64,000 bases of DNA from Adlercreutzia sp. ZJ304 (GTDB taxonomy: Bacteria > Actinomycetota > Coriobacteriia > Coriobacteriales > Eggerthellaceae), in contig NZ_JAAKEG010000001.1 of NCBI RefSeq assembly GCF_011039075.1, positions 62,001 through 126,000 of the forward strand, written 5' to 3'. Of this stretch, positions 54,265 to 60,546 are shown piece after piece (position 1 is the stretch's first letter; each line of letters begins with the position of its first letter). Both the position numbers and the translations under genes were made by a program. The notes beneath the pieces are model-generated. The model ran no database searches. It was not told the DNA's origin and saw nothing but the letters and a program-made list of their open reading frames with translations.

Positions 54265-55884
54265 ATGATAGATGAGATACATGTTCAAAATTTAGCTTTG
54301 ATAGCCGATGCTAGCATTGAACCTTCATCTGGTCTTACCGTGCTTACTGGCGAGACAGGAGCCGGCAAGACAGCGCTTCTTACATCGTGCAAACTTTTGA
54401 TGGGTGCGCGTGGCGAGCGTTCCTGTGTGCGTGAAGGAACGGACGAAGCGTGTGTGCAGGGTAGGTTCTTTATAGACGGCGATGCCGAATATGTGGTTGT
54501 TCGCCGCGTGTCTGCGGACGGTAAGTCGCGCGTGCAATTAAATGGACAAATGGTAAGTGTGGGAGAGCTTGCAGATGCGTTAGCTGCGAGCATAGACCTA
54601 TGCAGTCAACACGATAGCCAAGAGTTGTTGAAAGCTTCAACGCATTTAAGGCTTTTAGATGCTTGGGCTGGCAATGAGGGGCTTGTAAGCGCATATGCGC
54701 AGGCTTATCAGCACTACTCAGAATGTTTTGCGCATTTGGAAGAAATACGTGCGGGCGGAAAAGCGTCTGCCGAGCAGCTGGAACAGGCAACATTTGTATT
54801 GCGTCAAATAGATGCCGTTTCTCCAGATGTAGGGGAATATGAAGAATTGATAGCTGCTTTATCTAAGGCTGAAAATGCCGAAGCACTAGCTCGCGCTGCC
54901 AGTGTAGCCAGAGAAGCGCTTTCTGGCGACGATGGTGCGCTTACGTATCTTGGGCAAGCCGTATCGTCGCTAGATGATGGCGCGCGCCACGACGAAACAT
55001 TGGCGAAATTTGCCGATACTTTGCGTGAGTCTGTATACATTATTGAAGATGTTGCGCGAGATGTTGCTGCTTATGTAGATGGAATAGAATTCGAGCAGGA
55101 TGCCCTTGATAGGATGCAGCAGCGTATTGCAGCATATCAGGGGCTTATGCGCGCCTACGGACCCACCGTAGCCGATGTGGTAGCGAAAGCCGATGAAGCG
55201 CGCGAGAAAATTTCGATGTTTGATAATTCCGAAAGTCTAGAGCTTGAAGCGGTTGCATCACTTGAACAGGCAAACGCGGCACTTGAACAGGCTGCTTTGG
55301 CTCTAAGTAAGTCTAGGCAGCAAGTTGCCATCGATTTCGCTTCTAAGATAGTTGACGTTATGGCAAATCTCGAAATGGGCAGCGCAGGTGTTGAATGTCA
55401 AGTAACATTGTTGCCACGCAATCAGTGGACTATGTCTGGTGCCGATAAGGTAGAGTTGGCTTTTCGACCGGCACATAACATGCAAGCACGTCCTTTGTCA
55501 CGTATAGCTTCGGGTGGTGAGCTGTCGCGCGTATTATTGGCTTTGCATGTTGTTATGGAAGACAAAGACGAGGTATCTACTCTTGTGTTTGACGAAATAG
55601 ATGCCGGTGTAGGTGGAGCTACGGCTAATGCGTTGGCTGATGTGTTAGTGCAGCTATCTTGCACTCATCAAGTGTTGGTCGTTACGCATTTAGCACAGGT
55701 TGCCGCGCGGGCTGACAAGCATTATGTAGTTCGCAAATATGAGCGCGAAGGCGTTGCTGAAACCGATATTCAGCTTGTGTGCGGACCCGACCGCGAACGC
55801 GAAATTGCACGCATGCTGTCCGGTAGTGTTACCGACACATCTATTGCCCACGCGCAAGAACTTCTGCAACATATTTCGAATTAA
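54265..55884 (+). CDS. recN: DNA repair protein RecN
   Basis: A 539-residue SMC-like ATPase: MIDEIHVQNLALIADASIEP, Walker A LTGETGAGKTALLTS, a coiled-coil middle region, and Walker B with LVFDEIDAGVGGATANAL, His switch VVTHLAQVAARADKH. Acts in double-strand-break repair. Spaced 38 bases from uvrB with GGATGA-type ribosome site. The length is near the family norm of about 550. Confidence 0.94.
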   Translation: MIDEIHVQNLALIADASIEPSSGLTVLTGETGAGKTALLTSCKLLMGARGERSCVREGTDEACVQGRFFIDGDAEYVVVRRVSADGKSRVQLNGQMVSVGELADALAASIDLCSQHDSQELLKASTHLRLLDAWAGNEGLVSAYAQAYQHYSECFAHLEEIRAGGKASAEQLEQATFVLRQIDAVSPDVGEYEELIAALSKAENAEALARAASVAREALSGDDGALTYLGQAVSSLDDGARHDETLAKFADTLRESVYIIEDVARDVAAYVDGIEFEQDALDRMQQRIAAYQGLMRAYGPTVADVVAKADEAREKISMFDNSESLELEAVASLEQANAALEQAALALSKSRQQVAIDFASKIVDVMANLEMGSAGVECQVTLLPRNQWTMSGADKVELAFRPAHNMQARPLSRIASGGELSRVLLALHVVMEDKDEVSTLVFDEIDAGVGGATANALADVLVQLSCTHQVLVVTHLAQVAARADKHYVVRKYEREGVAETDIQLVCGPDREREIARMLSGSVTDTSIAHAQELLQHISN

Positions 55885-55887
55885 TGC

Positions 55888-55915
55888 TTGCAAGACGCTA
55901 ATACAGTGATAGAAT
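55888..55915 (+). promoter_or_regulatory. Promoter of the ECF (trp) operon
   Basis: TTGCAA (55888-55893), 16-base spacer and TAGAAT (55910-55915) preceded by TGA, an extended -10. The predicted transcript starts near 55922, directly before the leader ORF. Confidence 0.7.
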
Positions 55916-55947
55916 CTGTCCAGCTCGTTAATCGAATGGAGATTGTG

Positions 55948-56031
55948 TTGACTACACTCTGCGGACATAAGGCATTACATAGCGCCCATAAGGCGTTTGC
56001 CTGCGCATGGTGGTGGCACAAGTCAAGATAG
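55948..56031 (+). CDS. Trp leader peptide (attenuator)
   Basis: A short ORF with GGAG at 55938-55941, six bases before TTG 55948 (GTG 55945 and ATG 55936 are in the same frame). It codes 27 residues ending in FACAWWWHKSR and stops at TAG 56029-56031. Three consecutive TGG codons lie at 56008-56016, seven residues from the end. A stalled ribosome there leaves 56034-56044 free to pair with the terminator's left side (56078-56088). This is the layout of trp-operon leader peptides. The gene behind encodes a TrpP-like transporter component, which matches. Confidence 0.85.
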   Translation: MTTLCGHKALHSAHKAFACAWWWHKSR

Positions 56032-56033
56032 AA

Positions 56034-56103
56034 CGGATTATCGAAGCTTAGTTGTCTACGCGCACAAATTAGGACCCTCGGTAATCCGCCGAGGGTCTTT
56101 TTT
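56034..56103 (+). terminator. Attenuator: antiterminator segment and rho-independent terminator
   Basis: Terminator: GACCCTCGG (56073-56081) pairs with CCGAGGGTC (56089-56097), loop of seven bases, then TTTTTT. Antiterminator: CGGATTATCGA (56034-56044) pairs over 11 positions with TCGGTAATCCG (56078-56088), including one G-U pair, and would dissolve the terminator. The two structures are mutually exclusive. A ribosome finishing the leader at 56031 would cover the antiterminator segment and allow termination. Confidence 0.85.
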
Positions 56104-56140
56104 ATGCGCTAAATCAAGTCTATTAAGAAAGGATAAGAAG

Positions 56141-56758
56141 ATGGAAAATGCAACAGTTACAGATAAAACAGACGAAACACCGACGGGTCAGAGTCGCACG
56201 CAAACGGTAACTGCGCAAAAGCGCGAAGTGAAAGAGACTCGTGATAAAGGGCTTTCTGTACGAGATTTAATTCTAATCGCAGTTCTTTTGGCTGCGGGCG
56301 CGGTGTTAAAACTTACAGTGTCGTCTTTCCTTAGCTTTGGAGGAATGAAGCCAAACTTCATGATAGCAATGTATTGTTTGGCGATAATTCTTGTAAGACC
56401 GAATGTGGGTCAAGCCGCAATTATAGGTTTGCTTACTGGGCTTATCAGTCAAATTCCTATGCTCAACGCTACTCCGTGGGTAAATATTGCATCAGAAACA
56501 CTAGGCGCAACTATATGCGGTTTGCTAATTCTTATTCCTATAAAAGCAGGCAAATTGGATCTGAATCCTTTAGTTACTACATTTCTTTCAACTGTAGTTT
56601 CGGGCTATACCTTCGCAATAATTGTGGGTCTTATGAACGGTCTTAATATAGGAGCCATTCTGATAACTTATGCAGTAATGGTGTTCGGTACTGCTTGTAT
56701 TAATTGCGTTATCGTTGAAATACTTGCTCTGCCTTTATCTCGCGTATTGAAGCGCTAG
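56141..56758 (+). CDS. trpP: ECF transporter S component, TrpP-like (tryptophan)
   Basis: A 205-residue membrane protein: a charged N-terminal stretch of about 45 residues, then around six hydrophobic segments. SFGGMKPNFMIAMYCLAIIL and the following GLLTGLISQIPM match TrpP-family proteins (GGMKPD/NxM is typical). ATG at 56141 with AAAGGATAAG upstream; the longer frame upstream crosses the attenuator and is not coding. The Trp leader peptide ahead independently indicates tryptophan. EcfA, EcfA' and EcfT genes follow, so it is the substrate-capture subunit of a dedicated ECF importer. Confidence 0.85.
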   Translation: MENATVTDKTDETPTGQSRTQTVTAQKREVKETRDKGLSVRDLILIAVLLAAGAVLKLTVSSFLSFGGMKPNFMIAMYCLAIILVRPNVGQAAIIGLLTGLISQIPMLNATPWVNIASETLGATICGLLILIPIKAGKLDLNPLVTTFLSTVVSGYTFAIIVGLMNGLNIGAILITYAVMVFGTACINCVIVEILALPLSRVLKR

Positions 56759-56800: not shown

Positions 56801-57640
56801 ATGATCTATCTGAAAGATTTTTCGTTTAAGTATGCTGAGCACGACAATTTCGCGCTGCGCGATATTAGCTTGATAATTCCCGATGGGTGCTTTGTTGGTA
56901 TAACCGGTGCTGCTGGATCGGGTAAATCTACCCTAACTTATGCCATGAATGGAATAATTCCGCATTGCTATCCCGGAGACTTTTATGGCAGCGTTGTTGT
57001 GGGTAGTCTTGATACCGTTGAAGCCAGCTTAACCGACATATCGCGCTTGGTGGGAAGCGTGTGCCAAGATATAGATTCGCAAATGGTTTCATCGGTTGTG
57101 GAAGATGAAATTCTCTACGGGTTGGAAAATTTTGGTGTCGCAAAAGATGAAATACCATCGCGTGTAAGCGAGGCGCTAGAAGCGATGGGAATAAGCGATC
57201 TTCGAAGTCGCAGTATAGATTCTTTGTCTGGTGGACAGAAGCAAAAAGTTGCTTTGGCGGCGATAATTGCCTTGAAGCCGCGCATTTTGCTTCTGGATGA
57301 GCCTACAGCGGAATTAGATCCGGCATCGTCATTCAATGTATTCAGTTTGTTGAAGAATTATGCTACCGAGCATGGTATGACTGTTGTGGTGGTTGAACAA
57401 AAGATTGCTCTTTTAGCTGATTTCGCTGACAAGCTAGTTATAGTGGACGACGGGCGCATTCGTTTTGACGGAACGCCACAAGAGGTTCTTTCGCATTCCG
57501 ATGAATTACTTGATATAGGCGTAAATGTGCCAAGGTCTACAAGTCTTATTAACCGGCTGCGCAAGCGCGGGCTTTATCGCGGGGCTGCGGTGTGCGATGT
57601 TGCGGATGCTGTGCGTGTATGTAAGGAGGTGCTGGCATGA
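56801..57640 (+). CDS. ECF transporter ATPase (EcfA1-like)
   Basis: A 279-residue ABC ATPase: FALRDISLIIPDGCFVGITG, Walker A GAAGSGKST, signature LSGGQKQKV, Walker B ILLLDEPTAELD, His replaced in VVVVEQK (Glu-Gln instead of the usual Thr-His; common in this ECF subset). One of two ATPases powering the transporter with EcfT and the S component. Ends overlapping the next gene by ATGA. Confidence 0.92.
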   Translation: MIYLKDFSFKYAEHDNFALRDISLIIPDGCFVGITGAAGSGKSTLTYAMNGIIPHCYPGDFYGSVVVGSLDTVEASLTDISRLVGSVCQDIDSQMVSSVVEDEILYGLENFGVAKDEIPSRVSEALEAMGISDLRSRSIDSLSGGQKQKVALAAIIALKPRILLLDEPTAELDPASSFNVFSLLKNYATEHGMTVVVVEQKIALLADFADKLVIVDDGRIRFDGTPQEVLSHSDELLDIGVNVPRSTSLINRLRKRGLYRGAAVCDVADAVRVCKEVLA

Positions 57641-58473
57641 TAGAGTTTAAGAATGTTAGTGCTTCTTATGATGACGAAACACCAGTAGTCGATGGGCTTT
57701 CGTTTCAAATTTCCGATGGTGATTTTGTTGCGTTTGTTGGCACGAACGGGGCAGGGAAGTCTACCACGATGCGTCTTGTGAACGGTCTTTTGAAGCCCAC
57801 TTGCGGGCAAGTGCTTATAGATGGCACTCCCACTACTAGTTTGCGCACTAGCCAATTGGCGCAGCGCGTCGGCTTTCTGTTTCAGAACCCCGATAGGCAA
57901 ATATGCTGCAATACTGTGCGCGATGAATTGCTGTTTGGCTTTACTGCTCAGGGGGTAGACAGCGCACAGGCTATTCCCCGTGTTAATGAAATGATAGAGC
58001 GCTTCGGATTTGATGGAGATGCAGAGCCGTTTCTTTTGAATAGAGGAACGCGACAGCTGTTGGCTTTGGCATCGATTGTTGTTATGCGTCCGCCTACTAT
58101 AGTGCTAGATGAACCTACTACTGGGTTGGATTATCGCGAATGCACAAAGGTAATGGATTTAATTTCCGAGCTTCATATGGCGGGTACAACTGTAATTATG
58201 GTTTGTCACGATATGGAAGTGGTTGGCGATTATGCCAAGCGCGTTATTGCTATGACAGCTAGTCATATCGTGGCAGATGGACCGACATTCGATGTGCTGC
58301 GTAACAGCGAAGTGTTGCAACGCGCGCATTTGTTGCCACCTCAGATAACTGATATTTCAATGAAGCTTACAGAAGATGTTCCAGAATTGCACCAGAGTTC
58401 TATTGCGTGCGCGGATACGCTTCAACAAATGGAAGACGCTATTGCAAGCCGGGTAGAGAAAGAGGTGCGCTAA
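57637..58473 (+). CDS. ECF transporter ATPase (EcfA2-like), atypical signature
   Basis: A 278-residue ABC ATPase: Walker A GTNGAGKST, Q-loop LFQNPDRQICCNTV, Walker B TIVLDEPTTGLD, His-loop MVCHDME. The signature LSGGQ is replaced by LNRGTRQ (about residues 144-150), keeping the RQ of ECF-type ATPases but altering the motif proper. In ABC dimers one degenerate site is tolerated when the other ATPase is canonical, as here. C-terminal tail of about 50 residues. Overlaps EcfT by one base. Confidence 0.9.
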   Translation: MIEFKNVSASYDDETPVVDGLSFQISDGDFVAFVGTNGAGKSTTMRLVNGLLKPTCGQVLIDGTPTTSLRTSQLAQRVGFLFQNPDRQICCNTVRDELLFGFTAQGVDSAQAIPRVNEMIERFGFDGDAEPFLLNRGTRQLLALASIVVMRPPTIVLDEPTTGLDYRECTKVMDLISELHMAGTTVIMVCHDMEVVGDYAKRVIAMTASHIVADGPTFDVLRNSEVLQRAHLLPPQITDISMKLTEDVPELHQSSIACADTLQQMEDAIASRVEKEVR

Positions 58474-59279
58474 TGGCGAAGTTTTTGGAATATGTACCGG
58501 GAGACAGTTTGATGCACCGGATGAATCCGGTGGCTAAAGTGCTATGTGCACTACTTATCTCTATTGCTTGTTTTTGCACGTCGAATTTAGTATTTCTTTG
58601 CGCGGTGCTTGCGATTGATTTCGCTTTAGCCGCTAGTTGCCATATGACAAAACAAGCATTAGGACTTGCGAAGGCAGTTGCAATTTTTTCTATCATATTG
58701 GCACTTATTGCACTATTAACTACCTCTACTGGCACTCAGCTTGTGGCGCTTCCTTGGGGCTACATTGGTACAGGAAGTATTTTGGCAGCAATAACGGTTG
58801 TAATTCGCCTAGTTGCCTGCGCGGTGCCCCTGTTTCTTGTTATGTATGTTACTCAGCTAAACGATTTGGCAAATTCGTTTTGCAAAATATTGCATGTGCC
58901 GTACAAATACGCTTTTACATTCACAAGTGCTGTGCATTTTATACCTGTTTTTATGAACGACATGTCGCAGATAATGCAGGCGCAGACTGCGCGCGGGGTA
59001 GAATTCGATTGCGGCTTTGTGAAGAAGATTAGGCTAATGGCACCGCTGTGTGTTCCCTTGTTAATTAGTAGTGTGCGGAAGACTAATTCAGCCGCTATTG
59101 CTGCGGAAGTGCGAGGGTTTAATCTGCGCACGCGCGATAGTGGATTTAAGGAGTATCCATTTACTTTGGTAGATGTTGTATGTATTCTTGCTTGCGCTTT
59201 GTTAATAGTTGTAGCTGTTGCTTTGAACGTTGTGTTGCCGGGTGGTACTATCTTTATGAATCTGTTAGCAAGTTTCTAA
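58473..59279 (+). CDS. ecfT: ECF transporter transmembrane component EcfT
   Basis: A 268-residue membrane protein with five or six hydrophobic segments and the two coupling motifs of the EcfT family: QTARGVEFDCG and AAEVRGFNLR, which contact the two ATPases. ATG at 58473 shares its A with the preceding stop codon TAA. Completes the S-A-A'-T operon controlled by the attenuator. Confidence 0.92.
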   Translation: MAKFLEYVPGDSLMHRMNPVAKVLCALLISIACFCTSNLVFLCAVLAIDFALAASCHMTKQALGLAKAVAIFSIILALIALLTTSTGTQLVALPWGYIGTGSILAAITVVIRLVACAVPLFLVMYVTQLNDLANSFCKILHVPYKYAFTFTSAVHFIPVFMNDMSQIMQAQTARGVEFDCGFVKKIRLMAPLCVPLLISSVRKTNSAAIAAEVRGFNLRTRDSGFKEYPFTLVDVVCILACALLIVVAVALNVVLPGGTIFMNLLASF

Positions 59280-59908: not shown

Positions 59909-60328
59909 CTAGCGACCTTTACGCTTCTGTTTTTTCTTTTCCTGCTTTTGAGAGAAGCGCGCTGCCTGCGCTTCTCGCCTTGCTTGGGCACGGTAGGCTT
60001 TCGCTGCAACTTTCCTCTCTTTTCTAGCTTCTGAGAGAGCCTGCTGAGATTTGGTACTAACAGGATGTCTTGACAATTCTTTTGATGCTTCGCGCATGCG
60101 TCGTTTCGGGTTCTTCGTCACCTTAGGAGCTTTGGTTTCTGCGTTTCCATGGAAGCGAAGAGACTCCCATTTCTTAACAACAAACTGCAAAACTTCCTCA
60201 TCCGATGGTTCTGCGCCGAAGACGATACGCGCGGCGGATAGCTCGCCGTCTTCCACATGTTCCACAACGCCGACCCAAAACTGACCGTCATGAAACAGGG
60301 TCAGAGTAGATGACACGCTGATCTGCAT
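59909..60328 (-). CDS. yjdF: YjdF family protein (DUF2992)
   Basis: A 139-residue protein: TLTLFHDGQFWVGVVEHVED, SAARIVFGAEPSDEEVLQFV and a highly basic helical C-terminus (KERKVAAKAYRAQARREAQA, KQEKKKQKRKGR), matching YjdF/DUF2992. Its function is unknown, but the gene is classically preceded by the yjdF riboswitch, and a structured leader is present here (60329-60449). ATG at 60328 with GGGGGAAT. The basic tail suggests nucleic acid or ribosome contact. Confidence 0.9.
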   Translation of the reverse strand: MQISVSSTLTLFHDGQFWVGVVEHVEDGELSAARIVFGAEPSDEEVLQFVVKKWESLRFHGNAETKAPKVTKNPKRRMREASKELSRHPVSTKSQQALSEARKERKVAAKAYRAQARREAQAARFSQKQEKKKQKRKGR

Positions 60329-60449
60329 GGTTAATTCCCCCTTTATGTAGATAAACCATGCAGAGAAGGGACAACCAAGGAGGCAGGTTACTGATGCGGT
60401 TTTGCACGCCCACGACTACCCAACGGGGACTGTGTTTTTATCTCTGATG
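60329..60449 (-). promoter_or_regulatory. Candidate yjdF-type riboswitch leader
   Basis: On the reverse strand a TATAAT (plus 60456-60461) is followed by a GC-rich leader of about 120 bases holding GTCCCCGTTGGGTAG, GGGCGTGCAAAACCGCATC, GTAACCTGCC and GCATGGTTTATCTAC before the ribosome site. The arrangement of conserved-looking single strands and the gene behind it fit the yjdF motif, which senses azaaromatic compounds. Recognition is by position and general pattern; no model was scored. Confidence 0.65.
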
Positions 60450-60546
60450 AAAGGTATTATACCTTTTTCGCCCTGCCCTCTATGTGGAGGATGAGTCGTT
60501 TGACATCTCTATTAAATCGAGGAGTGAAGTTAGGACGCAACATAGG

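Follow-up and report, generated by a model that had tools for sequence, protein, structure and literature searches.

We propose, with a probability of roughly 0.9, that the leader of the trpP operon in Adlercreutzia sp. ZJ304 controls an ECF-TrpP importer by ribosome-mediated transcription attenuation, with charged tRNA-Trp as the signal sensed. Within the window, by which we mean the whole stretch of 64,000 nucleotides analysed here, recN (end at 55884) is followed in order by a promoter, a GGAG, a leader ORF, an antiterminator and a terminator with its T run, and trpP begins at 56141. An earlier note, drawn from the sequence alone, had described an extended -10 promoter, a GGAG, a short ORF with three TGG codons, its spacing to the terminator, an 11-bp antiterminator, the terminator and a T run, and all of these lie at the positions it had claimed:

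55888..55915, + strand: sigma-70-type promoter with extended -10 (TTGCAA at 55888, 16-nt spacer, TG at 55907, TAGAAT at 55910-55915)
55938..55941, + strand: Shine-Dalgarno GGAG of the leader ORF, read from the sequence and kept in leaders L002 and L003
55948..56031, + strand: leader ORF of 27 aa with a TTG start, LTTLCGHKALHSAHKAFACAWWWHKSR, stop TAG at 56029-56031; C-terminal half conserved in genus mates
56008..56016, + strand: three tandem Trp (TGG) codons, the control codons, invariant in all aligned class B and class A leaders (see below)
56034..56044, + strand: left arm of the antiterminator, CGGATTATCGA, pairing with 56078-56088
56078..56088, + strand: right arm of the antiterminator, TCGGTAATCCG, overlapping the end of the terminator left arm, the loop and the first base of the right arm
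56071..56099, + strand: intrinsic terminator hairpin, arms 56071-56082 and 56088-56099
56098..56103, + strand: T run of the terminator, read from the sequence

The predicted leader peptide ends in AFACAWWWHKSR directly before its stop. Its TTG is a weak start codon, which we counted against the model, and an in-frame GTG lies just 5' of it at 55945. From the stop codon to the terminator at 56071 there are 39 nt (13 codons), and the left arm of the antiterminator begins 18 nt past the last base of the Trp codons and 3 nt past the last base of the stop. The two antiterminator arms pair at 11 of 11 positions, one of them G-U, and a helix as long as this was reached in none of 5000 dinucleotide shuffles. 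The terminator, whose stem of 12 bp is worth about -21 to -24 kcal/mol, shares bases with the right arm, and the two structures are mutually exclusive.

With little charged tRNA-Trp available, the leading ribosome would stall on UGG UGG UGG (56008-56016) with its front edge short of 56034, so that the 11-bp antiterminator could form and RNA polymerase would continue through trpP-ecfA-ecfA'-ecfT. If tryptophan is plentiful, the ribosome would reach the UAG at 56029 and cover most of 56034-56044, leaving the terminator to form and transcription to end near 56100. This predicted switch, in which stalling exposes the antiterminator and completion of the peptide masks it, is the one set out in the earlier note, and both the spacing and the alternative folds agree with it. 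RNA from 56021 up to 56094, where the right terminator arm is incomplete, folds the antiterminator at -19.1 kcal/mol, and with RNA covered up to 56041 by a ribosome at the stop only the terminator remains, at -23.9 kcal/mol; the ribosome edges in this test were assumed from general knowledge of the footprint. The terminator is favoured at equilibrium even when the left arm is free. Because a complete terminator is more stable than its competitor, the choice between the two folds must be made kinetically, as it is in classical attenuators.

The genes downstream, which the earlier note had called an ECF importer operon, indeed comprise an S component, two EcfA-type ATPases and EcfT; the S component, left unidentified there, matches TrpP:

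56141..56758, + strand: TrpP, predicted tryptophan-specific S component of an ECF transporter, 205 aa (PF17099, 36.6 bits, cut-off 27.2)
56801..57640, + strand: EcfA ATPase (best match TIGR04520, under its curated cut-off)
57637..58473, + strand: EcfA' ATPase (best match TIGR04521, under its curated cut-off)
58473..59279, + strand: EcfT transmembrane coupling protein (PF02361, 93.5 bits)

We therefore predict that trpP-ecfA-ecfA'-ecfT encodes a complete ECF importer with tryptophan as its cargo, the cut-offs missed by the two ATPases being those of NCBIfam equivalogs. The name of the family, together with the two kinds of Trp-specific leader found before trpP orthologues, leads us to infer that TrpP is specific for tryptophan; with an ECF tryptophan importer as the target, the amino acid that is sensed and the one that is transported would agree, and import would be expected to raise intracellular tryptophan. 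No hit to trpB or trpB2 was obtained in the window genome (98% complete). The trpB model reports the TrpB-like trpB2 of relatives at about 1e-37, hence both genes appear to be absent here, and with neither detectable the organism is probably a tryptophan auxotroph that is supplied by uptake. Further along the window an azaaromatic (yjdF) riboswitch (60351-60451, - strand, 61.9 bits) lies upstream of a gene for a DUF2992 protein (59909-60328, - strand, PF11208), which is a known pairing.

Conservation was assessed within the genus by comparing the window species with two others, one of which is Adlercreutzia murintestinalis. Both genus mates (L002 and L003) carry the leader at the same place, complete with TTG start, GGAG, antiterminator and terminator, and a promoter TGnTATCAT is found at the matching place in each. 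The earlier note had looked to relatives for conserved Trp codons and compensatory changes, and would have taken a lack of conserved codons or pairings as refutation; the comparison did not refute it. The WWW is kept in 3/3 species compared, the peptides of the two mates ending in AFAGAWWWNKPE and AFAGAWWWSKPE, and both the antiterminator and the terminator persist, with compensatory changes, in the genus and in 13 related leaders. In the genus mates the antiterminator reads CGGATCATC/GGTGATCCG, with a compensatory C:G pair where the window has T:A. The beginning of the peptide varies freely between genomes G001 and G002, with 8 codons changed in a way that alters the residue and 3 in a way that does not, which is what one would expect if the peptide served only to time translation.

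Most orthologues of trpP are preceded by a different device. Among 100 distinct trpP loci, mostly from Eggerthellaceae, the T-box motif AARGGTGGCACCGC was found within one mismatch at 88, with TGG at the specifier position in 83 of 86 by pattern and in 2 more by eye. Sampled orthologous loci match RF00230 at E values of 1e-8 to 1e-16, under the gathering score of the family, whereas a T-box in the window leader was rejected because neither it (L001) nor L002 or L003 matches this model. The sole T-box match in the window genome (L130, G000:C27:39263-39467, + strand) scores 72.3 bits, also under the gathering score. Three Lachnospiraceae/Clostridiales MAG contigs (L064, L066 and L067) encode a TrpP 48-49% identical to that of the window behind a T-box motif.

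These comparisons bear on the possibility that the leader encodes a TnaC-like arrest peptide, in which free tryptophan rather than uncharged tRNA-Trp would stall the ribosome and tryptophan would thus induce the operon. The arrangement has a precedent in tnaCAB, where a Trp-containing leader peptide likewise lies ahead of a tryptophan transporter. However, three tandem UGG codons with a few codons after them, and then an intrinsic terminator that competes with an antiterminator, are the attributes of trp attenuators, the peptide before the WWW is free to vary, and the orthologues use a TGG T-box, a reader of uncharged tRNA. We consider an arrest peptide very unlikely, and retain attenuation by charged tRNA-Trp.

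The nearest kin of the window element are the trpB2 leaders of other Eggerthellaceae. In this form, here called class B, an AGAWWW or similar is followed by a few codons and a stop, and it precedes trpB2 in other Eggerthellaceae, the genus mates included; the enzyme encoded by trpB2, which was typed on L212 and L215, is TrpB-like (NF009057/TIGR01415). A WWW leader attenuator stands before trpB2 at L221-L223, L225, L226, L229-L234, L240, L212, L213 and L215, and WWW-led trpB2 genes were found in many Eggerthellaceae and in some f4 genomes; at one locus (L224, genome G041) a T-box motif precedes trpB2 instead. Model R2, of the trpB2 type, finds the element in 34/137 genomes of Eggerthellaceae, about half of which were not used to build the model, and its copies lie mostly upstream of trpB2 hits. 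Among 396 genomes sampled from the phylum, its matches are confined to Coriobacteriales. The window element scores 8e-14 with R2, partly by construction, as it is one of the 16 sequences of the model.

An alignment of 16 class B leaders, that of the window among them, supports the antiterminator by covariation. Its cells are paired in 90.8% of cases, and 5 of the 11 pairs have both partners changed. The covariation score of 0.351 compares with 0.196 for shuffled alignments, is reached by 0/500 shuffles and exceeds that of versions slid along the alignment (at most 0.117). The outer pairs (alignment columns 37-41) are not kept in all relatives. In the aligned leaders the left arm starts some 23-28 nt after the first base of the Trp codons, so that a ribosome stalled there would just leave it free.

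It is highly improbable that the hairpin is simply the ordinary terminator of recN, with a WWW ORF present by chance and trpP expressed constitutively or from another promoter. In favour of such an arrangement, the hairpin lies about 190 nt past the recN stop, TGGTGGTGG is not rare in the 2-Mb genome (41 sites, about twice the control), and the promoter scan taken alone is at chance level (8 found against 8.7 expected). The explanation is nevertheless disfavoured by the covariation of the antiterminator, and it sits poorly with the conservation of WWW, antiterminator and promoter and with the presence of the same motif before trpB2 at other loci. No more probable is control of the leader by translational attenuation or by a protein in a TRAP-like manner: although leader attenuators that hide a ribosome-binding site are known (PMC9413887), the competing hairpin is here a GC-rich stem followed by T6 that excludes the trpP ribosome-binding site, and this stem and T run are kept as a terminator in the aligned class B leaders.

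Some Slackia, and the majority of the genomes sampled from two further families of the order, have a second class of Trp leader (class A) ahead of trpP. Its form, NWWWRDxxxVGR followed by a stop, occurs before trpP in families f2 and f4 (presumably Atopobiaceae and Coriobacteriaceae), as well as in three genomes that resemble Slackia (g41) and in one f10 genome. At E values under 1e-9, model R1 recovers class A leaders from well over a hundred genomes. Besides a terminator, these leaders have a hairpin surrounding the control region, and both helices covary, with 10 pairs changed on both sides. The antiterminator proposed for this class, formed with the terminator loop and right arm, is 90% paired, far above slid controls, but mostly invariant. 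Its covariation is hardly above that of shuffles (14/500 reach it), so we regard it as less secure than the class B antiterminator. We also considered, and rejected, a descent of the window element from class A, as R1 does not find it at E up to 0.01.

In Slackia-like genomes (L204-L210 and L214) a class A WWW leader stands before a sodium symporter of the SNF/NSS family, three of which were typed, and this suggests that the symporter carries tryptophan. Behind a single leader, many f2 and f4 genomes (L218, L174-L183 and others) encode a pair of neighbouring TrpP-like S components, and the two copies fall on separate branches of the TrpP tree.

On that tree the genus of the window is nested in a group that bears T-boxes, and placing every leader-controlled TrpP in one clade is rejected (p-AU 0.013). 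As drawn, the tree has the class B leader arise twice at trpP, a reading that we set aside given that one clade of the window genus and G354 is not rejected (p-AU 0.43). Together, the tree and these two values suggest that leader and T-box control have been exchanged at trpP, with at least two separate leader lineages. In G354 a class B leader precedes a trpB2-trpP gene pair and thereby serves both genes, G001 and G002 have one leader for each gene, and the window genome has only that of trpP; the simplest reading of this series is that the trpP leader was recruited from trpB2. We would put at even odds the fuller scenario, in which a trpB2-type attenuator was recruited to trpP in the genus of the window, replaced the T-box of most orthologues and belongs to a wider Trp-leader regulon of the Coriobacteriales for uptake and salvage.

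The mechanism is classical ribosome-mediated attenuation, a known kind, and it is the target (uptake and salvage) and the lineage that appear new in the open-access literature. The earlier note knew of no description for an ECF system in Coriobacteriia and our search found none either, nor any of Trp leaders before trpP, trpB2 or NSS transporters or elsewhere in Coriobacteriia, the search covering open-access literature. Many gut Coriobacteriales look unable to make tryptophan, and we predict that classical Trp attenuation governs uptake and salvage in these organisms rather than biosynthesis. The leaders also offer independent functional evidence for tryptophan handling by TrpP and by NSS-type transporters.

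Among the closest described counterparts, one group is in the same phylum. According to the available part of Seliverstov et al. 2005 (PMC1262725), Trp leader attenuators precede the trp operons of Corynebacterium and Streptomyces and trpS in some Streptomyces, and they resemble the window leader in their short ORF, 2-3 tandem UGG codons, GC-rich terminator with poly-U and overlapping antiterminator. They control biosynthesis and trpS, whereas the putative target here is the ECF-TrpP importer, with trpB2 and an NSS-type transporter as further targets in relatives; that part of the paper reports neither such targets nor Coriobacteriia. With the proteobacterial Trp_leader (E. coli trpL) the element shares the ribosome-mediated logic, the tandem Trp codons and the antiterminator/terminator pair. 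Unlike the E. coli type, it has no match to the Rfam Trp_leader model (E up to 5 for L001, up to 1 for L002 and L003), the Rfam search of the leaders returning weak, unrelated matches only, and no clear protector hairpin, a 1:2 structure hiding the left arm in the untranslated leader being no better in the window than in shuffles (z -0.16); a helix with changes on both sides does occur in class A leaders. The bmrCD operon of Bacillus subtilis, as described in the available part of PMC4191407, is likewise a transporter operon under ribosome-mediated transcription attenuation by a leader peptide; however, it encodes a drug transporter that answers to antibiotics, and here the codons point to tryptophan. 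T-boxes, which also control amino-acid transporters (PMC2494555), resemble the proposed attenuator in that those with a Trp specifier (RF00230), found before trpP in most other Eggerthellaceae, sense the charging of tRNA-Trp, but they need no leader ORF or translation. The trpP loci of this family thus offer a natural comparison, on orthologous genes, between a T-box and a ribosome-dependent switch.
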